From the NCBI RefSeq assembly GCF_000336575.1, contig NZ_AOPO01000001.1, positions 868,001-932,000 on the forward strand: a stretch of DNA of 64,000 bases, in the 5' to 3' direction. A program made the position numbers and the translations under genes. Below, in pieces: positions 3,730 to 53,112 of this stretch. The notes beneath the pieces are model-generated. The model saw nothing but the letters and a program-made list of their open reading frames with translations, had not been told where the DNA came from and ran no database searches. This stretch comes from Vreelandella titanicae BH1. Lineage in GTDB: Bacteria; Pseudomonadota; Gammaproteobacteria; Pseudomonadales; Halomonadaceae. How positions within the stretch are numbered: the stretch's first letter is position 1; each line of letters opens with the position of its first letter.

Positions 3730-4224
3730 ATGATAAAATCGATGGCTTGGCTGGGTGGCGTACTCTTGATTGGCGCTATGTCTATTTCGATGACATCTAT
3801 GGCGTTAGCCCACGACGTAAAAACAGAGACTCTTCGCATTGCGCACCCCTTCGCTACCCCAACCCCACCGGGTGCGGTAAACGGTGCCGCCTACCTTGAT
3901 ATCACCGCCGTTTCAGGCCCCGTCACTCTGGTTGGCGCGAGCAGTCCTGCGAGCAGCAACGTTGAGCTGCACGATATGCAAATGGACGGCGATATGATGC
4001 AGATGCGGCATGTGGACGAGATTCGTGTCGAGGCAGGGGAGACTTATACCATGCGCCCTGGTGGCGGCTTTCACTTAATGCTGATTGGCTTAACCGAGCC
4101 GCTGAAGGAGGGTGAGCGGTTTCCCCTCACGCTCACCTTCGCTGAACAAGGTGACGTAGACATCGAGGTCTGGATACAGAGCGCCCAAGACGGTAGCGAA
4201 GCTGCTGATGGGCATCACCACTGA
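3730..4224 (+). CDS. Periplasmic copper chaperone PCu(A)C
   Basis: Periplasmic Cu(I) carrier of the PCu(A)C family that supplies copper for the CuA site of cytochrome c oxidase. 164 residues from ATG 3730, chosen because an AAAGGA ribosome site lies about 8 bases upstream and because it begins a clean signal peptide (about residues 1-26, ending MALA before HDVKTE). The Cu ligand pattern is visible: ELHDMQMDGDMMQMR supplies His and Met ligands and GGFHLMLIG the later His/Met pair. The His-rich tail GHHH adds metal-binding capacity. Single gene followed by a strong hairpin terminator. Confidence 0.92.
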   Translation: MIKSMAWLGGVLLIGAMSISMTSMALAHDVKTETLRIAHPFATPTPPGAVNGAAYLDITAVSGPVTLVGASSPASSNVELHDMQMDGDMMQMRHVDEIRVEAGETYTMRPGGGFHLMLIGLTEPLKEGERFPLTLTFAEQGDVDIEVWIQSAQDGSEAADGHHH

Positions 4225-41382: not shown

Positions 41383-42261
41383 CTACTCAATATTCTGAAT
41401 CTGCTCCCGCATCTGCTCAATCAACACCTTTAGCTCAACCGCGCAGCGTGTCGTCTCAGCTACCACGGATTTTGATGAGAGGGTGTTGGCTTCGCGGTTG
41501 AGTTCCTGCATCAGGAAGTCCAAACGGCGGCCTTTGGGGCCTTTTTGAGAGAGCTGGTGGCCCACTTCTTCTATATGTGCGGTCAGGCGATCCAGCTCTT
41601 CATCCACATCGGCTTTTTGCGCCACAAGCACCAGTTCGGCTTCCAGGCGCTGGGGGTCGAGTTCAGTTTTGGCGACTTCCAGGCGTTCCAGTAGTTGGGC
41701 GCGTTGGCGCTCAAGAATCTGCGGCAGCAGGCTACGCACGGTGGCTACCTGCTCGCTTACGGCGGTTAGTCGGGTGGTGATCATCTCGGCGAGCTTTGCG
41801 CCTTCTCGGGCGCGAGCGTCGATTAGCTCATTCAGTGCCTGATCAAACAGGGTTTTGGCGGCGGCTTTGATGGCGTCTTGGTCGAGATGCTGGGCTTCCA
41901 TCACACCGGGCTGGTTGAGTAGCGCAAGCGTGGTGGGCGGCACGGCGCTGGGCACTTGTTGCTGTATGGCGGTTAGCGCATCAGCAATAGCGGCTAAGCG
42001 GGCGCTGTTAACGGCGGGGGCTTGGGCAGTTTCGGCGCTCTCAAAGCGAACACTGCACTCGACTTTGCCACGGGCTAAACGGGTGCGCAGCGCTTCACGC
42101 AGCCCTGGCTCTAGGTCACGCAGGCTTTCATGCAGGCGGAAGTGAGGCTCTAAATAGCGCTGGTTCACCGAGCGAATTTCCACCTGCAGGGTGCCAAACG
42201 GGGCAGCCTGCTCGGTGCGGGCAAAGGCGGTCATGCTGTGTACGCGGCTGGAAGTGGCCAT
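41383..42261 (-). CDS. yicC: YicC family endoribonuclease-like protein
   Basis: 292 residues of the YicC/YloC family; E. coli YicC has been described as an endoribonuclease acting on small RNAs. N-terminal MTAFARTEQAAPFGTLQVEIRSVNQRYLEPHFRL and C-terminal GPKGRRLDFLMQELNREANTLSSKS...VELKVLIEQMREQIQN are the family signature. Usually divergent from rph; here 9.2 kb of accessory genes separate them. Confidence 0.95.
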   Translation of the reverse strand: MATSSRVHSMTAFARTEQAAPFGTLQVEIRSVNQRYLEPHFRLHESLRDLEPGLREALRTRLARGKVECSVRFESAETAQAPAVNSARLAAIADALTAIQQQVPSAVPPTTLALLNQPGVMEAQHLDQDAIKAAAKTLFDQALNELIDARAREGAKLAEMITTRLTAVSEQVATVRSLLPQILERQRAQLLERLEVAKTELDPQRLEAELVLVAQKADVDEELDRLTAHIEEVGHQLSQKGPKGRRLDFLMQELNREANTLSSKSVVAETTRCAVELKVLIEQMREQIQNIE

Positions 42262-42366: not shown

Positions 42367-43383
42367 TCAAACACCCATTATTTCTGGCTGAACCTCTATG
42401 AGCAGACGGGAATCCCGCGGTGGCGTATCAATCAGCTCGAAGACGCGGTCGATCATCTCGATCACATTTTGCCGAACCATCATCAAACGCGGATGAAAGG
42501 CAGCGGCAAGAGGATCCCAGTCAAAACAACCAAAAATAATGTCATCTAGATAATAGCCATTTAGCTGTAACCCACGAACGATGCCCTCAAGAGAAATCGT
42601 GGAGTTGACGAACATAGCGCTGGGCAGAGTAGACCGGTTACGCATGTATGTTGCCAACGCAGCCTGGGCCTTATCGGCAGCATAATCGCAGGGGAGGATA
42701 TTCTCTTCCGCCGTCGCCAGCCCCACCTCCTCTCTCGCTTGCTTGAAGCCGGCAATACGCTCGCGGGTATTGTGATCCTCATCACGGCCGCCAATAAATA
42801 GCACAGGGTCATCACTGCGCTTCTCTTCAGCAAGGCGGTTGAGGATGGCATGGGTAAGCTGTCGCGCGCCATCACGGTTATTGGAAATCACCGACGGTGC
42901 CTTACTGCCAGGAAGATCGAGATTAATGCTTTGCACGCCGCTCTCTGCACACATCTGTGCAATCGTATCCGGATCCGTTGCGCCGGTGCATACCAGGCAC
43001 TCAACACGGTAAGCCAGCATCATTCGGGCTGCTTCACACTCTTGCTTGGGATCTCGATTCGTACACGAAACAATCGCAAACAGCCCCCGTCGACGTGCTT
43101 CTGATTCGAAATGTTGGGCTATCGAACTGAAATAGCGGTTGTCGTACAGCGGCAGGATCATGCCGATGATACCTGAGCGTTCGCGCCGCAAGGCACGGGC
43201 CTGCATGTTGGCCGAGTAGCCTTCCGACTGGGCGAGCGAAAGAATTTTGCTGGCAAGTTTCTTGCTGATGCGACGGCGCTGCCAAGTGCCGTTGAGCACG
43301 GCACTGACGGTACTGGGCGATGTTTCTGCCAACCTCGCCAGGTCGTAAATAGTCAGCCGCTTGGATGAAGAGTCGCTAACCAC
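42367..43383 (-). CDS. LacI-family transcriptional regulator
   Basis: 338 residues: N-terminal LacI helix-turn-helix (TIYDLARLAETSPSTVSAVLNGTWQRRRISKKLASKIL), hinge, and a periplasmic-binding-protein-like effector domain (SGIIGMILPLYDNRYFSSIA onward). Divergent from the sugar-binding protein gene across a 300-bp region with a near-perfect 20-bp palindrome. Natural repressor of the adjacent sugar transport operon. Confidence 0.93.
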   Translation of the reverse strand: MVSDSSSKRLTIYDLARLAETSPSTVSAVLNGTWQRRRISKKLASKILSLAQSEGYSANMQARALRRERSGIIGMILPLYDNRYFSSIAQHFESEARRRGLFAIVSCTNRDPKQECEAARMMLAYRVECLVCTGATDPDTIAQMCAESGVQSINLDLPGSKAPSVISNNRDGARQLTHAILNRLAEEKRSDDPVLFIGGRDEDHNTRERIAGFKQAREEVGLATAEENILPCDYAADKAQAALATYMRNRSTLPSAMFVNSTISLEGIVRGLQLNGYYLDDIIFGCFDWDPLAAAFHPRLMMVRQNVIEMIDRVFELIDTPPRDSRLLIEVQPEIMGV

Positions 43384-43683
43384 GTGGCAGCTCCTTGCGA
43401 TTAGATAAAAGTAGCATTGACGTGATGATGCAATAGATCAATCCTACGCTATGCACAACCGATTGTGCATTCTCGACTAAATGACAATAACGATAGCGAT
43501 GACGCATCGCTTAGGCACCACTCAACGTATCCAGCACTGTGTAAAGCTCCTATGCATTGTGAGGCTCGGAAGCGTCTGCGCCATTTTATTTGACCATGAC
43601 GCAACGTACAGCAGCACTATTAAAGCGCTTCAATGCACTCTATTCCACTGACTGGGTCAGCCAACAGCAAGCAGGAAATCACA
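43384..43683. promoter_or_regulatory. Divergent promoter region of the sugar ABC operon
   Basis: 300 bp between lacI-type gene and transporter genes. Contains the 20-bp palindrome at 43451-43470 and an AAAGCGCTT core at 43623-43631 that resembles the centre of LacI/PurR-type operators. No gene seen. Confidence 0.6.
43451..43470. promoter_or_regulatory. Candidate LacI-family operator
   Basis: ATGCACAACCGATTGTGCAT: 8-bp perfect arms around CCGA. It lies 68 bp upstream of the LacI-type gene and 214 bp upstream of the binding-protein gene. Confidence 0.65.
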
Positions 43684-44667
43684 ATGAAATACAAAGCACT
43701 TCTTACCGCAGCTACGCTAACAGGCATTATCGGCAGCACCGGCGCAATGGCTCAGGAGTCTCCTACGATTGCCGTGGTCGCCAAGGTGGGGGGCATCCCC
43801 TGGTTCAATGCCATGGAAATGGGCATCGAACAAATGGGTGAAGAGCTTGGAGTAGAAGCCTATATGGTAGGCCCCACCAGTGCTGACCCCGCCCTGCAGG
43901 TACGCGCGATAGAGGATCTGATCAGCCGTGGCGTTGATGTCATTGGCGTTGTCCCGAATGATCGTGAGGTTCTTGAGCCGGTATTGGAACGAGCACGTGA
44001 TCAGGGAATTATCGTACTGACCCATGAAAGCCCCGAATCGGTCAACATCGACTACGACTTTGAAATGATTTCAGCGCAGCAGTTAGGTGAAGAGCACGCC
44101 AAGCTATTGGCTGACACCACCGGCTGCGAAGGCTCTTATGCCGTTTACGTTGGCGGCCTCAGCGTTCCCGCTCACAACGCCTGGGCAGATGCTGCCGTGA
44201 GCTGGCTCGATGATAACTGCTCGGGCTTGACCCAGGCCGCTGATCGTTTCGGCGTGGCCGAAAGCGTCGATGACAGCCGCAACACCACCCTGGACTTGCT
44301 GCGTGCCCACGAAGATTTGGCCGGCATCATGTCATTTGGTAGCCAGGGAACCATCGGCGCTGCTCGGGCCGTGAAAGAGCGGGGGCTGGAAGGGGATGTG
44401 GCCGTTATGGGCCTGTTCTCTCCTGGCCAGGGGCGCCGTCTGGTGCACGAAGGTGTGATTACCGGTGGTTTCCAGTGGAGCCCTCTGGACGCGGGCAAAG
44501 CGTTCGTTGCCCTGGGTGAAATGCTCTATAACGGCGAAGAGATTACCGATGGCGCCGAATTGCCGGTACTGGGTGAAATTACCCTGGACGGCAAAACGAT
44601 CTTTGCCTCACAGCCACTCAAGCTGAGCAAAGATACCGTGGATGAGCTGGCAGAGCTCGGCCTGTAA
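43684..44667 (+). CDS. Periplasmic sugar-binding protein of an ABC transporter
   Basis: 327 residues from ATG 43684, with AGGAA about 8 bases upstream. Signal peptide MKYKALLTAATLTGIIGSTG followed by AMA. Mature chain is a type I sugar-binding fold of the RbsB/LsrB group (IAVVAKVGGIPWFNAMEMGI, ISRGVDVIGVVPNDREVLEP, ITGGFQWSPLDAGKAFVALG). First gene of the import operon. Ligand not readable; the FGGY kinase at the end suggests a pentulose, pentitol or similar polyol. Confidence 0.9.
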   Translation: MKYKALLTAATLTGIIGSTGAMAQESPTIAVVAKVGGIPWFNAMEMGIEQMGEELGVEAYMVGPTSADPALQVRAIEDLISRGVDVIGVVPNDREVLEPVLERARDQGIIVLTHESPESVNIDYDFEMISAQQLGEEHAKLLADTTGCEGSYAVYVGGLSVPAHNAWADAAVSWLDDNCSGLTQAADRFGVAESVDDSRNTTLDLLRAHEDLAGIMSFGSQGTIGAARAVKERGLEGDVAVMGLFSPGQGRRLVHEGVITGGFQWSPLDAGKAFVALGEMLYNGEEITDGAELPVLGEITLDGKTIFASQPLKLSKDTVDELAELGL

Positions 44668-44743
44668 GACTGCGCTTATTGATCGTGTAAAGGCTGCCGC
44701 GCTCCTGAAGAGCGCGGCAGTGATGTTGAGAGAGGAGCCTCCA

Positions 44744-46231
44744 ATGGGCGATATCGCGATTCGAGCGCGTCACGTTAGCAAGATTTTCGGTCAAAGCCGG
44801 GTGCTCGATGATGTCGAATTCGAACTTCGCCGGGGTGAGGTGCTTTGCCTTGCAGGTGAAAACGGTTGTGGCAAAAGCACGCTCATTAAAATTATTAACG
44901 GCGTATACACGCCTGAAGAGGGGGTAGAGCTTTCGTTTGGCGATGAAACGCTCTCTGCCATTAGCCCGATAGAGGCGCGCAACCGGGGCATCCATGTGAT
45001 CTGGCAAGATCTCGCGCTGTTCCCGCACCTGACCGTCGCGGAAAATATCGTCTTCGATGACTACGTTGCCAAGCCTTGGCGGCCTATTTCCTACAAAGAT
45101 GCGCTGACGCAATCCCGCGAGATCATTCAGCAGTTTGGCCTCGACCTGGATCCGATGGCCCGTGTTGAAGACCTTTCGATTGCCCATCGTCAACTCGTTG
45201 CGATTTGCCGCGTGCTGCGTGCAGGGGCCAGTATCATTTTTATGGATGAGCCCACCGCCTCGCTTACCTATAAAGAGGTGCAGACGCTGCTGGGCATTAC
45301 CCGCTCACTGGCGGCGAAAGGCATTTCCATTGTCTTGATCAGCCACCGGCTGGTGGAAGTGTTGGAGGTGTGTCAACGCGTCACCGTGCTCCGCAACGGG
45401 AAGTTGGTCGGCACCTACCCCACCGAGGGGATGACCCAGGCACGACTTTCAACCCTGATGACCGGGCTTGAACTTGAGTTTACCCCTCGTGCTGAAACAC
45501 ACAAAGGCGCCCCGGTACTGGAGCTTAAAAACTTAAGTCGTGAAGGGGAATTTGAAAATGTCTCTTTCACCCTGCATCGCGGTGAAATTCTTGGCCTGAC
45601 GGGTTTGCTGGGCGCAGGGCGTACCGAAATAGCCCACACGATTTTTGGGATGACCCAGCCCACTTCAGGGCAGTTGCTAAAAGAGGGGCAGCCGCTGGCG
45701 CTGCGTTCCAACCGCGATGCCGTGCGCCATCGCATTGCCTATCTTTCTGAAGACCGACTCAATCTTGGCCTGGTGCAAAACCAGTCCATCAATATGAATA
45801 CCGCAGTGACCGTATTACCAAGGCTGGAAAAACCGCGCTTTTTTCTCTCCCCTCAGCGCATCAAGGCACTGACCGCCCACTGGATTGAGCAGCTTAAAAC
45901 CAAGGTGAGTGATCCCGAGCTTGCGGTCTCCTCATTATCCGGCGGTAACCAGCAACGCATTGCACTCGCCAAATGGCTAGCCACCGAACCCGACGTTCTC
46001 ATTCTTGACTGCCCGACGATTGGCGTCGATGTAGGCGCCAAAGCCGGTATTTTCGACATCATCAGAAATCTTGCCGACCAGGGCATGGCCATCATTCTGA
46101 TTTCGGATGAAGCAGGAGAAATCTGGATGAACGCAGACCGTGCGCTCGTATTGCGCGAGGGGCGCATCTACTCCGAGGTTATACCTGCGGAGACCACGGA
46201 AGAAGCGCTGGAGGCGATCATCAATGCATAA
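44744..46231 (+). CDS. Sugar ABC transporter ATP-binding protein, double domain
   Basis: 495 residues from ATG 44744, with AGAGGAG about 6 bases upstream. First nucleotide-binding domain is canonical: GENGCGKSTLIKII Walker A, IIFMDEPTASL Walker B. Second has a degenerate Walker A (GLLGAGRTEIAHTIFG), intact signature LSGGNQQRIALAKWL, and Walker B VLILDCPTIGVDVGAK, where the usual catalytic Glu is replaced by Cys. This suggests that one ATP site is impaired. Overlaps the next gene by 8 bases. Confidence 0.92.
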   Translation: MGDIAIRARHVSKIFGQSRVLDDVEFELRRGEVLCLAGENGCGKSTLIKIINGVYTPEEGVELSFGDETLSAISPIEARNRGIHVIWQDLALFPHLTVAENIVFDDYVAKPWRPISYKDALTQSREIIQQFGLDLDPMARVEDLSIAHRQLVAICRVLRAGASIIFMDEPTASLTYKEVQTLLGITRSLAAKGISIVLISHRLVEVLEVCQRVTVLRNGKLVGTYPTEGMTQARLSTLMTGLELEFTPRAETHKGAPVLELKNLSREGEFENVSFTLHRGEILGLTGLLGAGRTEIAHTIFGMTQPTSGQLLKEGQPLALRSNRDAVRHRIAYLSEDRLNLGLVQNQSINMNTAVTVLPRLEKPRFFLSPQRIKALTAHWIEQLKTKVSDPELAVSSLSGGNQQRIALAKWLATEPDVLILDCPTIGVDVGAKAGIFDIIRNLADQGMAIILISDEAGEIWMNADRALVLREGRIYSEVIPAETTEEALEAIINA

Positions 46232-47222
46232 ACGACTGCTAAACAGAAGGATCGGCACTGAAGGTACTCTATTGAGCATCCTCATGCTGCTGTGCGTGGT
46301 GTTAGCACTTGCGACCGACAGCTTTCTCACCTTTCAGAACCTGTTTGACCTGCTTAACAATCAGTCGGTCAATATCATCTTTGCAGTGGGCCTGGTCGTC
46401 GTTCTGATTGCGGGTGGGATAGATATTTCCTTCGCCGTGGCGGCATCCGTGGTGCAGTACGTGGTGCTGTCACTCCTGATGAATTACCTGGGCGGAGGCA
46501 ACTGGTTACTTGGCATCCTGCTTTCGATGCTGGTTGGTATGCTACTGGGGCTCTTCAATGCGCTGCTGATCCACCGCTTCCGAATTGTTTCGATCATCGT
46601 CACTATCGGCACATTTAACCTGTTTTTCGGCCTCTTGATGTACTTCACCAGCGGGGTATCCATCTACGACATCCCCGATTGGCTCTACTACTCGGTTCCG
46701 TTGCTTGACCTACCCGCCGAACGCGGATCAGCCACGCTCTACTTACCCGCGGCAGTTATGGTGGTGATGGTAATACTCACCTGGTTCATTCTGGCCCGCA
46801 CCGGTTTTGGGCGCGCGATCTACGGTTTCGGATCAAATCCCGAGTCCGCCCGCCGCTCTGGCGTTAGTGTCTGGAAGATCCATGCCTTTGCCTACGGCTG
46901 GCTGGGTCTATGCGCGGGGGTGGCGGGCCTGATGCAGGCTCATATCGTACAAGAGGTCGTGCCCAACGCCTTGATAGGCCAGGAGTTGCCAATTCTGGCG
47001 GCTGTCGTGCTAGGCGGCGCCACCCTGGGCGGCGGGCGCGGCTCAGTGCTCGGCGCTGTACTGGGCGTGCTGCTTCTCGCCGTTGTCCAAAACGGCCTGA
47101 ACCTGCTGGGCGTCACTCCTTACGCCTTCCGCATGATTGTCGGGCTGATTATCTTGATTGCGATCACCACCAGCAACCTAGGCAACCTGTTGCCCCGCAC
47201 CACCAAGGCGAGGAACGTATGA
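46224..47222 (+). CDS. Sugar ABC transporter permease 1
   Basis: 332 residues, about nine membrane segments, BPD_transp_2 family (RbsC/LsrC type): GLVVVLIAGGIDISFAVAAS near 55, SGVSVWKIHAFAYGWLGLCAG near 215 and LPILAAVVLGGATLGGGRGS near 260. Starts inside the end of the ATPase gene and overlaps permease 2 by 4 bases. Confidence 0.92.
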   Translation: MHKRLLNRRIGTEGTLLSILMLLCVVLALATDSFLTFQNLFDLLNNQSVNIIFAVGLVVVLIAGGIDISFAVAASVVQYVVLSLLMNYLGGGNWLLGILLSMLVGMLLGLFNALLIHRFRIVSIIVTIGTFNLFFGLLMYFTSGVSIYDIPDWLYYSVPLLDLPAERGSATLYLPAAVMVVMVILTWFILARTGFGRAIYGFGSNPESARRSGVSVWKIHAFAYGWLGLCAGVAGLMQAHIVQEVVPNALIGQELPILAAVVLGGATLGGGRGSVLGAVLGVLLLAVVQNGLNLLGVTPYAFRMIVGLIILIAITTSNLGNLLPRTTKARNV

Positions 47223-48211
47223 ATAAGCGCCTGAATAAACAGCCCTCCACGGCCGGACTCCGCCTGGGGGGCGATAGCATTGAAGTGGCCGCCATGACGG
47301 CTCTGCTCATCGGCAGTATTGGACTCTTCTCGCTATTGGCACCGGGCTTTCTGACCGCCACTAATTTTGGCTCGATGTCGATGCAGCTGCCGGAGCTGGG
47401 GTTACTCTCACTGGCGATGTTGCTGCCCATCATTTCCGGTGGCCTGAACCTCTCGGTTACCTTTACCGCCAATATCGCAGGGCTGATGACCGCTTGGCTG
47501 GTACAGGGGTTACTGGCGGGCATGGGCATACTAAGCGTTCCCATAGCGATTATCGCCGGGCTTGCCGTCGGCGCTGCCGCAGGCTTTTTGATTGGCGTTA
47601 TCGTTGCCTATGTGGGCGCCCACCCCATTTTGGTTTCCCTTGGGGCAATGATCTTTCTGCAGGGTGTGGGTGAGTTTTTAACCCGCGGTGGCGGTATTTC
47701 AGGCATGCCGGAGGTATTTCAAACCATCGGCAGCGGCAGTTTTCTGGGCATACCAATCCCCATGCTGATCTTTCTCGCCGCTGCCGCAGGGTTGATCTAC
47801 ATCATGCATTTCACCCGCACTGGCTTTTCGATTTATATGCTGGGCTCCAACTCTCGGGCGACGGAGTACTCGGGCATTAACGTCAAGCGCGTGCTGATCA
47901 CCGTCTACACGATTTCCGGCATTTTGGCAGGGTTAGCGGGCATGGTGATGCTCGCCCGCTTTAACTCTGTACGTGTAGGCCACGGCGAGAGCTACCTACT
48001 GATTACGGTTTTGGCCTGTTTTCTGGCCGGGGCAAACCCCTTTGGTGGCTTTGGCCGCGTACTGCCACTGGTGCTGGGCTTGATGAGCCTGCAGGTAATC
48101 GCTTCCGGCATGAATCTGATGGGCGCCAGCCAGCATCTAGCCACCGCGGTATGGGGGGCTTTTCTAATTATTGTAATGGCACTACGTATGCCATTTATTA
48201 AACAGTCGTGA
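47219..48211 (+). CDS. Sugar ABC transporter permease 2
   Basis: 330 residues, same family as permease 1: LPIISGGLNLSVTFTANIAG near 70, YSGINVKRVLITVYTISGIL near 220 and LITVLACFLAGANPFGGFGR near 260. A second distinct permease makes this a heterodimeric LsrCD-like channel rather than an RbsC homodimer. ATG overlaps the permease 1 stop. Confidence 0.92.
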   Translation: MNKRLNKQPSTAGLRLGGDSIEVAAMTALLIGSIGLFSLLAPGFLTATNFGSMSMQLPELGLLSLAMLLPIISGGLNLSVTFTANIAGLMTAWLVQGLLAGMGILSVPIAIIAGLAVGAAAGFLIGVIVAYVGAHPILVSLGAMIFLQGVGEFLTRGGGISGMPEVFQTIGSGSFLGIPIPMLIFLAAAAGLIYIMHFTRTGFSIYMLGSNSRATEYSGINVKRVLITVYTISGILAGLAGMVMLARFNSVRVGHGESYLLITVLACFLAGANPFGGFGRVLPLVLGLMSLQVIASGMNLMGASQHLATAVWGAFLIIVMALRMPFIKQS

Positions 48212-48224
48212 GTAAGGTTTTCCC

Positions 48225-49781
48225 ATGAGTCATCAAGAACATGTTCTAGGCATTGATATCGGTACGGGCAGCGCCCGAGCAGGCATTTTCACGCCGGATG
48301 GCGTGATGCTTGCCGAAGCGAAAACACCCATTGCAATGCATCGCCCTGCCGAGCATCACGTGGAGCAAAGCTCAGCGGATATCTGGCGCGCGGTATGCAG
48401 TGCAACCCAGTGCGCCCGCGAGGCTGCCGGTGTAACGTCCGATTCCATCACCAGTATGTCGGTGAGCGCCACCTGCTCGTTGGTGCTCCTTGATAAGCAG
48501 GATAAGCCGCTAGCGCTCTCACCGGGCGATGAGGCGTGGAATATCATTGTGTGGATGGATCATCGGGCAACCGCAGAAGCCGCTGAGTGCACGGCTACCC
48601 AGGCAGCGCCGCTGCGCAATCTGGGTGGCGTCATGTCTCCAGAGATGCAGATGCCTAAGCTCATGTGGTTGAAGCGGCACCGGCCCGAGCTCTATGCAAA
48701 GATCGGCTACGCTGGTGATCTAGGCGATTGGCTGGGCTTTAAATGCACCGGCTCTCTTGAACGCTCGGTCTGCATGCTCTCCTGCAAGTGGACGTTTGAC
48801 CCACGCCCTGGTCATGGCTGGGATCACGACTTTCTAAAGCAGATAGATATGCAGGATGTACTCGAGTGCGCCCGATTACCCGACCAAGCCCTTCCCGTGG
48901 GCGTAGCACTTGGGCAGTTGACCGAAGAAGCCGCCGATGACTTGGGACTGACGACTCGGTGTACCTTCGCAGTGGGCATGATTGATGCCTATGCCGGTGC
49001 GCTTGGCACGCTAGGCAGAAGCCTCGCTGATGCTCCCGAGCGCCGCCTTGCCGTGATTGGCGGCACTTCCACCTGCCATATCGGCGCCCAGCCGGTGCGG
49101 CGAGAGGTACCCGGCGTGTGGGGTCCTTATCCGGGGGCGCTATGCGACGGTTTTGTTGCCAACGAAGGGGGGCAAAGCATTACCGGTGCCCTTCTAGATC
49201 ACCTGGCGGCACTATTTTCAGCCAGCAGTGAATTCGGCGACGATCTTCACGGCGCGTTATCAGACCTTCTACTCGAGCGCTTGGCATCCGGCGACCCAGC
49301 TCCTGACACCCATGTTTGTCCTGACTTCATTGGCAACCGCTCACCCTTGGCGGATCCGGAAATTCGCGGCTCCATCACGGGATTGACCCTTGATACTCCT
49401 CGCGAGAGCTTCATCAAGGTCTATTGGGCGGCAGCCACCTCGCTGGTTTACGGCACCCGCGCCATCATAGAGCGTATGAATTCCCATGGTTATGCCATCG
49501 ATACCCTGCACCTCAGCGGAGGGCATGGACGTTCAGCACTGCTGCGAAAGCTCTATGCCGACGGTACCGGTTGTCGGGTTGTGCTGGCGGATGCGCCGGA
49601 ACCCGTACTACTTGGGGTAGCCGTGGCGGCGCTGGCTGCTCAGGCCAATGGTGAGATGCTTAGCGTTGCCAATGGCCTCGCCCCAGGCGAACAAACATTA
49701 GAGCCCGACCAGGCAATGCAGGCGCTGCACACTGCGCGTTATGCCGCTTTCAAGAAACTTTACGAAGGGCGTCTCGACTGA
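48225..49781 (+). CDS. FGGY-family carbohydrate kinase (ribulokinase-like)
   Basis: Phosphorylates the imported sugar or polyol. 518 residues. N-terminal phosphate loop GIDIGTGSARAGIFTPDG, IIVWMDHRATAEAAE near 103, FAVGMIDAYAGALGT near 245, GGTSTCHIG near 283, FIGNRSPLADPEIRGSITGL near 365 and adenosine motif LSGGHGRSALLRKL near 428. Overall pattern is that of the ribulokinase/5-carbon carbohydrate kinase group. Last gene of the operon, 13 bp after permease 2; no partner dehydrogenase or isomerase in the window. Confidence 0.9.
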   Translation: MSHQEHVLGIDIGTGSARAGIFTPDGVMLAEAKTPIAMHRPAEHHVEQSSADIWRAVCSATQCAREAAGVTSDSITSMSVSATCSLVLLDKQDKPLALSPGDEAWNIIVWMDHRATAEAAECTATQAAPLRNLGGVMSPEMQMPKLMWLKRHRPELYAKIGYAGDLGDWLGFKCTGSLERSVCMLSCKWTFDPRPGHGWDHDFLKQIDMQDVLECARLPDQALPVGVALGQLTEEAADDLGLTTRCTFAVGMIDAYAGALGTLGRSLADAPERRLAVIGGTSTCHIGAQPVRREVPGVWGPYPGALCDGFVANEGGQSITGALLDHLAALFSASSEFGDDLHGALSDLLLERLASGDPAPDTHVCPDFIGNRSPLADPEIRGSITGLTLDTPRESFIKVYWAAATSLVYGTRAIIERMNSHGYAIDTLHLSGGHGRSALLRKLYADGTGCRVVLADAPEPVLLGVAVAALAAQANGEMLSVANGLAPGEQTLEPDQAMQALHTARYAAFKKLYEGRLD

Positions 49782-49800
49782 CACAGCCAACCTGTTTCAT

Positions 49801-49850
49801 GGGGTCATTACATGAGTAGTGCGTAGGCGTCCGAAATCCGGGAACAAAAC
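49801..49850 (+). repeat. Left terminal inverted repeat of the cassette
   Basis: Core GAGTAGTGCGTAGGCGTCCG then AAATCCG (49814-49840). The matching right copy differs at two positions. Confidence 0.8.
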
Positions 49851-49904
49851 ATAAACATCGTTCCCACCCGGAGCAATGATGCATCAGCGGTGCAAGGTAC
49901 AGAT

Positions 49905-50789
49905 TCAGACGGTGCCACGTGCTAATTCATTACTGAGGTCAACCAATTTTAAATAGTCGTGGTATCGCTCCTCTACTGTTGGTGACCCAAACGATACTGA
50001 GACGCAGATCCCTCCGTTCTTAGTTGCCGAAACAGATGCCAGGTTGAATATAGCTGGCCACAGCGTGCCCGTTTTCCCGCCAAGATATTGCGGAAGCGAG
50101 AATTCCGGTACAGCCCGTCGCGTTGAGGAGTGAAAAGCAGACTTTAAAACCAGCCTGCGCGGCACCGGTCCCGTTATCCCGATAGCAAAAGCTTTGGCCC
50201 CCCAAACCCTCGTAATCGGGCCATAGATCAGACATTTCTTCACCAACAATGATAAATCTCGGGCGGTAGATCGTTGTCCGCGTACCGCCAACCCGTGTGG
50301 GTTTAGGAATTGCGATTTCGTCATCCCAAGATTTCGAGCGGTCGTGTTCATTTCCGCAACGAAGCGTTGCACGGCGTCGTGACTTGTGCATGTCTTCGAT
50401 CCCAGCATCATTTGGCCAAATGTCCGCGCAATCAGATTGGCTGCTACATTTGATGACGGCACCAAAAGGTTAGCGATGCTGTCGCCGAGTGAAAGGCGGT
50501 CTCCTGCATGAAGGTTACGACCAGATCCTTCGACATCATCTTCAGGAACCATCTCTAGCTTGAAGCTTTTCGGCAACTGGAAGTTACTTGCCATCTCGAT
50601 AGCAACGATGGCCGTCATCAGCTTGACGATTGACGCAGGCGCCATTGCCTTGTCGGCATCCTTCTCATAGATGATGACATCAGAGCCAGTGGAGTTGTGG
50701 GGCAACTGCAAACAGATCGCACTTTTCGCGGCGAGGTCGGGCGTAGGGCCTATTGATTTGCGTTCATCATACGGAGCGTGATTAGCCAA
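49905..50789 (-). CDS. Signal-less serine hydrolase, DD-carboxypeptidase-like (PBP5/beta-lactamase fold)
   Basis: About 294 residues from TTG 50789, the first start codon after an in-frame TAG, with AGGGA about 9 bases upstream. All three penicillin-binding motifs are intact: SxxK in APASIVKLMTAI near residue 54, SxN in VPSSNVAANLIA near 110, and KTG in LGGKTGTLWPA near 240. The protein begins almost directly at the catalytic domain; no signal peptide or C-terminal amphipathic anchor is visible, unlike DacA/DacC. So it may act in the cytoplasm or on a small peptide rather than on peptidoglycan. Lies 41 bp downstream of a 61-residue ORF in the same direction, inside the inverted-repeat cassette. 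Confidence 0.82.
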   Translation of the reverse strand: MANHAPYDERKSIGPTPDLAAKSAICLQLPHNSTGSDVIIYEKDADKAMAPASIVKLMTAIVAIEMASNFQLPKSFKLEMVPEDDVEGSGRNLHAGDRLSLGDSIANLLVPSSNVAANLIARTFGQMMLGSKTCTSHDAVQRFVAEMNTTARNLGMTKSQFLNPHGLAVRGQRSTARDLSLLVKKCLIYGPITRVWGAKAFAIGITGPVPRRLVLKSAFHSSTRRAVPEFSLPQYLGGKTGTLWPAIFNLASVSATKNGGICVSVSFGSPTVEERYHDYLKLVDLSNELARGTV

Positions 50790-50830
50790 TTCCGTTATTC
50801 CCTACTGTTGTCGTCAACGGTCACTAGGAT

Positions 50831-51016
50831 TCAGATGACAAAGATGTCGTCTGCGCTCAGCGACGACGAATTTGTCAAAGTTGCAAACCAGATAGCAGTC
50901 ATCGCTCCGTTGCCATCCGGGTCGTAGGATAGGTGGTTAGCCCATGTCACGTTATCATTTGTGATTGCATCCGCGATTTCTTCAATTGTGGCGACGTAGT
51001 TTGGATCGAATGACAT
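50831..51016 (-). CDS. 61-residue small protein upstream of the serine hydrolase
   Basis: Unrecognised. ATG 51016 is preceded by AGAGG about 9 bases upstream; in-frame sequence further up is not convincing. The protein is acidic, cysteine-free and without signal peptide: a predicted helix (YVATIEEIADAITND), then NVTWANHLSYDPDGNGAMTA and IWFATLTNSSSLSADDIFVI. The gene pair order and 41-bp spacing suggest co-transcription with the hydrolase. It could be a partner, inhibitor or peptide substrate; nothing in the sequence decides. Confidence 0.6.
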   Translation of the reverse strand: MSFDPNYVATIEEIADAITNDNVTWANHLSYDPDGNGAMTAIWFATLTNSSSLSADDIFVI

Positions 51017-51121
51017 GATCTGTTGCCTCTGCTGCGAAATCGATAATGACCATACCCAAGCTGATTTTGCGCAAGGCTGGTTGCTTATGCAATGTTGAAT
51101 AGGCGACGTTTCCCGCATTTT

Positions 51122-51311
51122 CTAGGGCGTAGTGGCTTGGCGATTTCCTTTCCCTTGGCTCCAAGCAAATACCGCCAGAGGCCCATAAATCTTATAGCCA
51201 CCGATTTCCTGCTCACCGAACACATCGCAGATATGGTGCTTTGTTGCCAATTTTGAGCCGCGCAGCAGCTTCTATTCCTTGTTGCGTGAGACGGAAGTAC
51301 CATCCGTCCAT
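51122..51311 (-). pseudogene. Frameshifted small ORF at the right end of the cassette
   Basis: From ATG 51311, with AGGA a few bases upstream inside the inward part of the repeat, the frame reads [28 protein letters not shown] and stops at 51213. The next frame continues as [36 protein letters not shown] to a stop at 51122. One base change would join them into about 62 residues; the first half resembles the end of a winged-helix domain. Low certainty. Confidence 0.35.
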
Positions 51312-51318
51312 AAGTTCC

Positions 51319-51368
51319 TATTTCGCTCACGTATTTCGGACGCCTACGTACTACTCTTGAAACGCCCC
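51319..51368 (-). repeat. Right terminal inverted repeat of the cassette
   Basis: Core 51330-51356 is the reverse complement of 49814-49840 with two mismatches. A separate small hairpin CTTGAAA/TTTCAAG (51356-51375) straddles the outer edge and complicates reading the target duplication. Confidence 0.8.
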
Positions 51369-51467
51369 TTTCAAGACGCTAGCTGGATGTTAAGCCCATC
51401 AGCGCACTCCCAGACGTGTACAATGGACGGCTTTTCCCAGTTACGCGTTTATCGAGAGGTAATATTT

Positions 51468-52217
51468 GTGAGCAGTGCTAAGCGTCCTGATGTTGTGCGC
51501 CCCAGTGGTCGCGAAGCCGACCAGCTCCGTGAGATTCGCCTGACCCGCGATTACACCCGTCATGCGGAAGGCTCCGTACTGGTGGAGTTTGGCGATACCA
51601 AAGTGCTGTGTAATGCCAGCGTAGAAGCCGGTGTGCCGCGCTGGCTGCGCGGCAAGAATCAGGGCTGGGTCACCGCTGAGTACGGCATGCTGCCCCGCGC
51701 CACTCACACCCGTAGTGGCCGTGAAGCGACCCGCGGCAAGCAAGGCGGTCGCACGCTGGAAATCCAGCGTTTGATTGGCCGTAGCCTGCGCGCCGCGGTG
51801 AATTTGAAGAAGCTGGGTGAGTTCACCATTACTGTGGATTGCGATGTGATTCAGGCCGATGGCGGTACCCGTACCGCGGCGATTACCGGGGGCTGCGTAG
51901 CACTGATCGATGCGATCCGTTATCTGCAACGCGAGAAGAAGATCAAGGGCGATCCCTTCAAGCAGTTGGTGAGCGCCATTTCCGTGGGTATTTATAAAGG
52001 CGTGCCGGTGCTGGATCTGGACTACCCGGAAGACAGCAAGGCCGATACCGACCTGAACGTGGTAATGACCGAAAGCGGCGAGCTGATCGAAGTACAGGGA
52101 ACCGCCGAGGCCGGCGCCTTCACCCGTGCCGAGCTAAATGACATGCTCGATTTAGCCGAGAAAGCAGGCGATGCACTTCGCGACCATCAGCGCGAAGCGC
52201 TGGGTATTCGAGGGTAA
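51468..52217 (+). CDS. rph: Ribonuclease PH
   Basis: Phosphorolytic 3'-5' exoribonuclease trimming tRNA 3' ends. 249 residues from GTG 51468, with GAGAGG eight bases upstream; open frame further upstream runs into the inverted repeat and is not coding. [60 protein letters not shown] and [19 protein letters not shown] are all present. Normally divergent from yicC. Its upstream flank is the edge of the mobile-looking cassette. Confidence 0.97.
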
Positions 52218-52250
52218 TGAAGGTGAGGTGTGAAGAGTAAGGCGTATAAA

Positions 52251-52284
52251 AACAACAGGCCAGCTAAATGCTGGCCTGTTGTTT
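52251..52284 (+). terminator. Intrinsic terminator after rph
   Basis: Perfect 14-bp stem AACAACAGGCCAGC with its complement around TAAAT, ending in TTGTTTG; may work in both directions for the convergent crc-like gene. Confidence 0.85.
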
Positions 52285-52344
52285 GTCACCCCGGCTAATC
52301 AGCAAGGGTGACAGGCGACGCGGGAAAAGTTCGTTGCCTAGCGC

Positions 52345-53112
52345 TTAAAGCGCTAGGTCGTACTCAACGATTAGCGGTGCGAACTCTGAGAAGGTCGCAT
52401 CGTAATCGATCCACGCGTCGACCACGTGGCGGCGGAAGTTGGGGCCGACTAACTGATAGTCGATCCGCCAGCCTTCCTGGCGCTCACGAGGCACGTCTTG
52501 GTCAAGCTTCGGCCACCAGGTGTACTCACCTGCATCGCGGTTAATTTCGCGGAAGGTGTCGATAAACCCGGTGGGACCAAGCACCTGATCCATCCAGGCG
52601 CGCTCTTCCGGGCGGAAGCCTGAGGTCAGTTGATTATCCGACCAGTTAGCCAAATCGACGGTTTTATGGGCAATATGCCAGGTACCGCAGAGGATGTATT
52701 CGCGGCGTTTGCGCGACATCTTCGTCAGGTACTCTTGATACTGCTCCATAAACGCCTGTTTGGCTTTTTGGTCACTTCCGTCAGGCATCAGGAAGGAGAC
52801 GATACTGAAGCGTTCATAATCCGCCTGCAGAAAACGTCCTTCATGATCACACTGTGGAAACCCAAGGCCATACATAATCGCCTTGGGAATTTTGCGGCAA
52901 TAGAGTGCCACACCGGAGAAACCGTCCTCTTCGGCATCCAGGAAATAGCCTTCATAGCCTTCCGGATACAGAATGTGGTCACCCAGTTCAAAACTTTTTG
53001 CCTTGATGTTCTGCACGCAGACCACGTCGACATCCTGCTGAGCCAGCCAGTCCAGGAAGCCACGATCGACGGCATCACGAATACCATTGACATTGATGCT
53101 GGCAATTTTCAT
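52345..53112 (-). CDS. crc: Crc-like protein (catalytically degenerate exonuclease III homolog)
   Basis: 255 residues of the ExoIII/APE fold. Position between rph and pyrE is that of Pseudomonas crc, whose product works with Hfq in catabolite repression and is not a nuclease. Active-site blocks are altered: the usual Q-E-T-K reads VQNIKA, GDxN reads CGTWHIAH (Asp and Asn lost), and the terminal SDHxP reads FAPLIVEYD (Asp-His lost). RKRREYILCG and GYxxxLREVxR-like blocks match Pseudomonas Crc as I recall it. It is therefore better called Crc than an active nuclease. Divergent from pyrE. Confidence 0.82.
   Translation of the reverse strand: MKIASINVNGIRDAVDRGFLDWLAQQDVDVVCVQNIKAKSFELGDHILYPEGYEGYFLDAEEDGFSGVALYCRKIPKAIMYGLGFPQCDHEGRFLQADYERFSIVSFLMPDGSDQKAKQAFMEQYQEYLTKMSRKRREYILCGTWHIAHKTVDLANWSDNQLTSGFRPEERAWMDQVLGPTGFIDTFREINRDAGEYTWWPKLDQDVPRERQEGWRIDYQLVGPNFRRHVVDAWIDYDATFSEFAPLIVEYDLAL

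Follow-up and report, generated by a model that had tools for sequence, protein, structure and literature searches.

What kind of DNA separates a sugar-kinase gene from rph in Vreelandella titanicae BH1, and how it came to lie there, are the questions raised by the 64,000-nucleotide stretch analysed here (the window). The original prediction had singled out a cassette bounded by long inverted repeats and had placed it in the interval between yicC and rph. The cassette does adjoin rph on the Halomonas chromosome, but its left neighbour is the kinase gene: it lies between this gene (48225-49781) and the GTG start of rph at 51468, and the yicC-like open reading frame ends some 7.5 kb to its left. 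Going by gene names read from the translations, we take the yicC-like frame (41383-42261, minus strand) to be followed by a regulator and a sugar ABC-transporter operon, of which the kinase gene is presumably the last member. A TACAAT hexamer about 50 bp to the right of the element, which is kept in genomes lacking it, may be the -10 box of rph. The insertion spans 49801-51369 (1,569 bp), and its features, some of them defined by comparison with a longer copy in Halomonas sp. SpR1, are the following:

49796-49800, no strand: left target duplication, TTCAT, from the sequence and the empty sites (alternative register TTTCA, 49795-49799)
49801-49856, plus strand: left terminal inverted repeat, beginning GGGGTCATTACATGAG and resembling rhizobial Tn3 ends
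49905-50789, minus strand: S11 peptidase of the D-Ala-D-Ala carboxypeptidase family, 294 aa from a TTG start, recognized by PF00768 and its motifs
50831-51016, minus strand: serralysin-like RTX protease remnant, 61 residues in frame, deletion joint at about 50934-50939 (intact gene at L007:6205-7959)
51186-51272, no strand: 87-bp stretch without match in the SpR1 element, from the alignment blocks
51314-51369, minus strand: right terminal inverted repeat, outer end CCCC or CCCCT
51370-51374, no strand: right target duplication, TTCAA (TTCAT in SpR1), from the sequence and the empty sites (alternative register TTTCA, 51369-51373)

The long inverted repeats initially described are confirmed, in an imperfect form. 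Their 55-nt arms (49802-49856 and 51314-51368) are 78% complementary, and the best inverted pair in window positions 49000-52500 scores 25.5 (ungapped, +1/-1.5), above all 40 dinucleotide shuffles, the highest of which reached 17.5. Each arm finds its partner as the sole reported non-self match in the 5.34-Mb genome (E 4.9e-5), in which the whole element is present as a single copy. The G+C content of the element is 50.7%, against 54.7% for the window, and its interior contains one sizeable open reading frame, the S11 peptidase gene. None of the four small frames tested had a Pfam match, in agreement with the earlier description of a hydrolase accompanied by tiny frames and no transposase.

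That this DNA was gained can be read from related genomes. Of 196 genomes, 22 gave a match to the kinase gene (the window's own included, and G110, G112 and G115 with short pieces only) and 188 a match to rph. The kinase end and the rph start fell within one fetched locus in 14 genomes, two of them filled (the window strain and SpR1) and 12 devoid of the element at this junction (G027, G005, G045, G074, G032, G030, G058, G054, G011, G006, G023 and G066), which supplies the empty site in relatives that had been proposed as a check; the first six of these present empty-site stretches of equal length, 137 bp. The junction reads CAACCTG-TTTCA-AGACG in G027 and CAACCTG-TTTCA-T-GGGG...CCCC-TTTCA-AGACG in the window, and the empty site predicted from the window flanks with a single duplicate retained agrees with G027 at 69 of 72 bases. 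Hence, 1,574 bp were gained, which demands either a 5-bp duplicate plus 1,569 bp or a 6-bp duplicate plus 1,568 bp.

The TTTCA pentamer initially noticed at either flank, the left copy being followed by an extra T, is indeed seen in the sequence. The 5-bp duplication deduced from it is upheld by the empty sites, but TTCAT/TTCAA is the better reading of its register and moves the right end outward by one base: the pairing of 49802 with 51368 sets 49801 opposite 51369, so that one extra T belongs to the right end. In this preferred register the duplicates are TTCAT (left) and TTCAA (right) in the window, with one mismatch, and TTGAT and TTCAT in SpR1. TTCAT is thus retained on one side in both copies, and the empty sites show TTCAT in G005 and TTCAA in G027. 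TTTCA repeated with an extra left T, or a 6-bp TTTCAT, are possible alternative registers. A 5-bp target duplication is a trait of the Tn3 family, according to the available portion of PMC4133298.

The origin of the element is best approached through the copy in SpR1. A scan of species genomes confirmed this single relative among 111 candidate stretches, and in the 196 genomes element matches were restricted to the window's own, G077 (taken as SpR1 from its matching contig coordinates) and G079 (28 bases only). The SpR1 insertion occupies the identical place and comprises 3,911 bp between GGGG and CCCC. It contains, in order toward its right end, collinear pieces matching residues 1-42, 276-398 and 958-991 of rhizobial TnpA (tblastn E 5e-5, 9e-24 and 0.009, respectively), the remainder of TnpA being missing. 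The longest piece is 41-43% identical to the rhizobial protein and matches profile NF033527 over positions 252-378 (E 1.7e-9) at 36 bits, far below the model cut-off of 500. The same element carries a 584-aa open reading frame with RTX repeats (PF08548, E 1.2e-20) that resembles serralysin-type NF035945 (E 5.3e-71, 240 bits against a cut-off of 500) and displays the sequence HEIGHVLVFRH as well as nine GGxGxD repeats. On the same strand, 30-40 bp beyond it, comes the S11 gene, and the two passengers would presumably form an operon. These TnpA pieces, enclosed by the same ends, lend support to the original guess of a non-autonomous Tn3-family element, and the 3.9-kb copy is the fuller relative that had been sought in order to name the transposase. 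No autonomous element with these ends, nor any copy at another site, was encountered in the genomes, plasmids and viral contigs searched, and the further copies with different flanks that had been anticipated thus failed to appear.

In tblastn searches the main TnpA piece matched 217 plasmid records, of which Agrobacterium contributed the most (59), followed by Rhizobium (30), and 10 of the 20 listed among them are annotated as Tn3 family transposase. These matches would suggest a placement in the Tn163 subgroup of Tn3. Tn3-family ends start with GGGG, as seen also in the rhizobial relatives here, and the rhizobial transposons with matching TnpA end GGGGTCAGAACAAGAG.... When six rhizobial loci were first scanned with a profile built from the Halomonas ends, nothing rose above the shuffled level except marginally, and the likeness emerges only when the comparison is anchored on GGGG. 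In this register, the left end of the window element agrees with the rhizobial ends at 19 of the 34 bases that follow GGGG, a score reached by 0 of 2500 GGGG-anchored controls, and that of SpR1 at 17 of 34 (1 of 2500). The right ends show no likeness in the GGGG register, where over bases 5-25 the score of the window end is reached by 2441 of 2500 controls and that of the SpR1 end by 2334. After a shift of one base the right ends agree at 18 of 34, and 10 and 11 of 2540 controls, from a set not purged of real ends, do as well, a match that fits a right end lying one base further out.

Members of the Tn3 family share related TnpA and ends and differ in their passengers, and their terminal inverted repeats measure about 38-40 bp or longer, according to the available portion of PMC7157771. 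By these standards, the window element has 55-nt repeats, a left end like rhizobial ends and a right end like them only after a one-base shift, and a 5-bp duplication with one mismatch in the preferred register, whereas related TnpA is found solely in the sister copy, as pieces, and is absent from the window copy. A tblastn search with three rhizobial resolvases yielded nothing significant in either copy, as expected of a deletion derivative, and we therefore speak of a remnant of the family and not of a complete member. We are highly confident that a Tn3-family transposon has decayed here, and that the element is its non-autonomous remnant.

Comparison with known systems places it among ordinary elements that have lost their own transposase. 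The closest are the rhizobial-plasmid Tn3 transposons with a 991-aa TnpA, such as the mer transposon of Agrobacterium pAtCFBP6623b (L068), which have related TnpA and GGGG ends. Nine end pairs from eleven rhizobial loci show, in four cases, duplications like that of the window element (6 bp in L068; 5 bp in L079, L083 and L084, the last two being one insertion) and none in the other five. In contrast to the window element, which lacks both genes and carries a peptidase, these transposons possess a whole tnpA and a resolvase, with cargo such as mer. TIMEs and TIME-COMPs are likewise non-autonomous, with Tn3-type ends and 5-bp duplications; as described in the available portions of PMC4133298 and PMC13367494, however, TIME-COMPs have a miniature at each end where the window element has single ends, and TIMEs (PMC4133298) are short and have been caught moving, whereas the window element is a 1,569-bp remnant without sign of later movement. 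A truncated Tn3-family transposon, likewise decayed in Halomonas, is described on plasmid pZM3H1 of Halomonas sp. ZM3 in the available portion of PMC3606827; set against the window element by this description only, it differs in being plasmid-borne, Tn4651-related and equipped with mer and czcD.

The window copy itself is, on alignment to SpR1, evidently a deletion derivative from which the transposase pieces were lost and the protease cut while the S11 peptidase was kept. Element positions 1-1134 align with SpR1 1-1134 (96.7%), 1139-1385 with 2666-2912 (95.1%, 247 bp) and 1473-1568 with 3816-3911 (89.6%). The first gap corresponds to about 1.5 kb of the protease gene, of which the 61-residue in-frame remnant is left, and at the second, 87 unmatched bp in the window take the place of about 900 bp with TnpA pieces in SpR1. 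Because these 87 bp match nothing in the SpR1 element, the latter is a sister and not the ancestor; they are perhaps an ancestral segment that SpR1 lost. In the ancestor, repeats with GGGG ends would have enclosed a tnpA directed toward the right end, together with two closely spaced passengers on one strand, the genes for an S11 peptidase and a serralysin-like RTX metalloprotease. It inserted between the sugar-kinase gene and rph, presumably by paste-and-copy transposition, as its family membership implies, and duplicated 5 bp; internal deletions in the window lineage then took away the transposase and almost the whole protease, leaving 1,569 bp with the S11 gene. The locus offers decay stages of one Tn3-family insertion, cargo with a broken tnpA in SpR1 and ends with a single cargo gene in the window strain, alongside clean empty sites in relatives. 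It leaves the general view of transposition unchanged and adds S11 peptidases and serralysin-like proteases as possible Tn3 passengers, a literature search on the Tn3 family and serralysin having returned no account of such cargo in the portions of the sources available. This two-peptidase cargo, together with a likeness between species that exceeds that of most flanking DNA, is mildly unusual.

The retained peptidase matches PF00768 (E 8.2e-23, 81.5 bits against a cut-off of 27.6), has its SIVK, SSN and KTG motifs intact at residues 53, 112 and 239, and has an orthologue in SpR1 that matches the DD-transpeptidase 1es4 (E 4.4e-13). Between both copies there are 17 synonymous changes over 218 sites and 11 non-synonymous changes over 664 sites, the latter fewer than neutrality predicts (binomial 5.6e-5, or 7e-4 if the expected share is set at 0.70). 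Purifying selection has probably acted on the gene during part of the period since the copies diverged, and we infer that the peptidase is still functional. An apparent loss of the start codon, which is ATG in SpR1 but ATA in the window, was rejected, for both copies share a TTG three codons on, nine bases after AGGGA. Relatives of the S11 protein in 108 plasmid and 56 phage records, and of the protease in 1047 plasmid records, stay below 60% identity at all of the best places, and viral contigs contain no S11 relatives. No annotated protease partner accompanies the S11 relatives in two plasmid neighbourhoods, where the PLSDB gene tables are incomplete. The plasmid S11 relative listed first (36.6%), on plasmid P2 of Pseudosulfitobacter pseudonitzschiae (L075), has a cas9 gene at a distance of about 4 kb.

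Both ends, a 5-bp duplication and the absence of a transposase are also what a TIME-like miniature would show, and such elements, as well as cargo-bearing forms, are known to move in trans (PMC4133298, available portion). That the window element is still moving with a Tn3 transposase supplied in trans is nonetheless unlikely: it is single copy in its genome, its ends have drifted to 78% likeness, and the repeat pattern (up to 3 mismatches) has two carriers among 82 genomes of the genus, that of the window and G077, each with the pattern at this site. A Tn3 transposase profile, positive in 3 of 14 control genomes, gave no match in the window genome or in G027, and a broken piece only in G077. 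The remnant is hence probably immobile at present, unless a transposase were to arrive in trans. Among the 196 genomes the element is shared by SpR1 alone, at the same place; the repeat pattern (up to 3 mismatches) retrieved only the window's own in 398 genomes of the phylum, a set that excludes G077; neither the exact repeat pattern in viral contigs nor the whole element in plasmids was found; and the TnpA piece had no match in 390 genomes of the order, a set without known positive that shows little. Against plasmids, the right repeat had one chance-level match (E 6), and the sole match of the left repeat was a solo end, 84% like it, on plasmid pOM4 of Mesorhizobium onobrychidis, with no second end nearby. 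In this region (L073:9001-11432) the solo end stands directly beside a shortened ATPase gene similar to IteA (profile positions 186-322 of 367) and an S8 peptidase weakly like IteS; IteA and IteS constitute an anti-phage pair.

The presence of the element in two species can be most simply accounted for by one insertion whose allele was passed between the species through homologous recombination. In trees of the kinase gene (support 0.94), of rph and downstream DNA (1.00) and of the 1.5-kb stretch preceding the kinase gene (0.98), the window strain pairs with the empty G027, and SpR1 pairs with the empty G054 upstream and the empty G074 downstream, the downstream tree being the weakest, with four genomes only 62-64% alike there. 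It is improbable that the site received related elements independently in SpR1 and in the window lineage, a course of events that would imply a target preference. The empty state of G027, the nearest relative of the window strain, would favour it, as would the first two element blocks, which exceed in identity both the kinase gene (90.9%) and its 1.5-kb upstream region (83.2%); rph is 87.9% identical, and the synonymous divergence of the S11 gene (0.08) is below that of seven validly measured flanking genes (0.17-0.83). On the other hand, the copies share the same base, the same orientation and the one-base-shifted right end, and flanks that form a mosaic of 0-26% divergence per 150 bp fit exchange by homologous recombination. 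Moreover, the right 96 bp of the element have 10 differences, much like the flank beyond (13 per 100), and the right junction thus looks like one old event. A more elaborate proposal, in which a rare Tn3 branch with secreted-protease and cell-wall-peptidase cargo prefers one site upstream of rph and entered two Halomonas species separately, the S11 gene being kept by selection after the death of the transposon, seems to us quite doubtful. An old intergenic region lost by the 12 other genomes, although in keeping with its presence at one place in two species, is scarcely credible, as it needs precise losses that include one duplication copy in the other junctions, G027 has the exact pre-insertion sequence and TnpA pieces lie inside.

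The sugar ABC operon and kinase gene between yicC and rph (42367-49781) are patchy, and their divergence from SpR1 varies strongly along the operon. To the right of rph, an exonuclease-type gene (52345-53112) has a dS of 0.17 between the window and SpR1, against 0.49 in the neighbouring pyrE, a low value that is a sign of between-species recombination.
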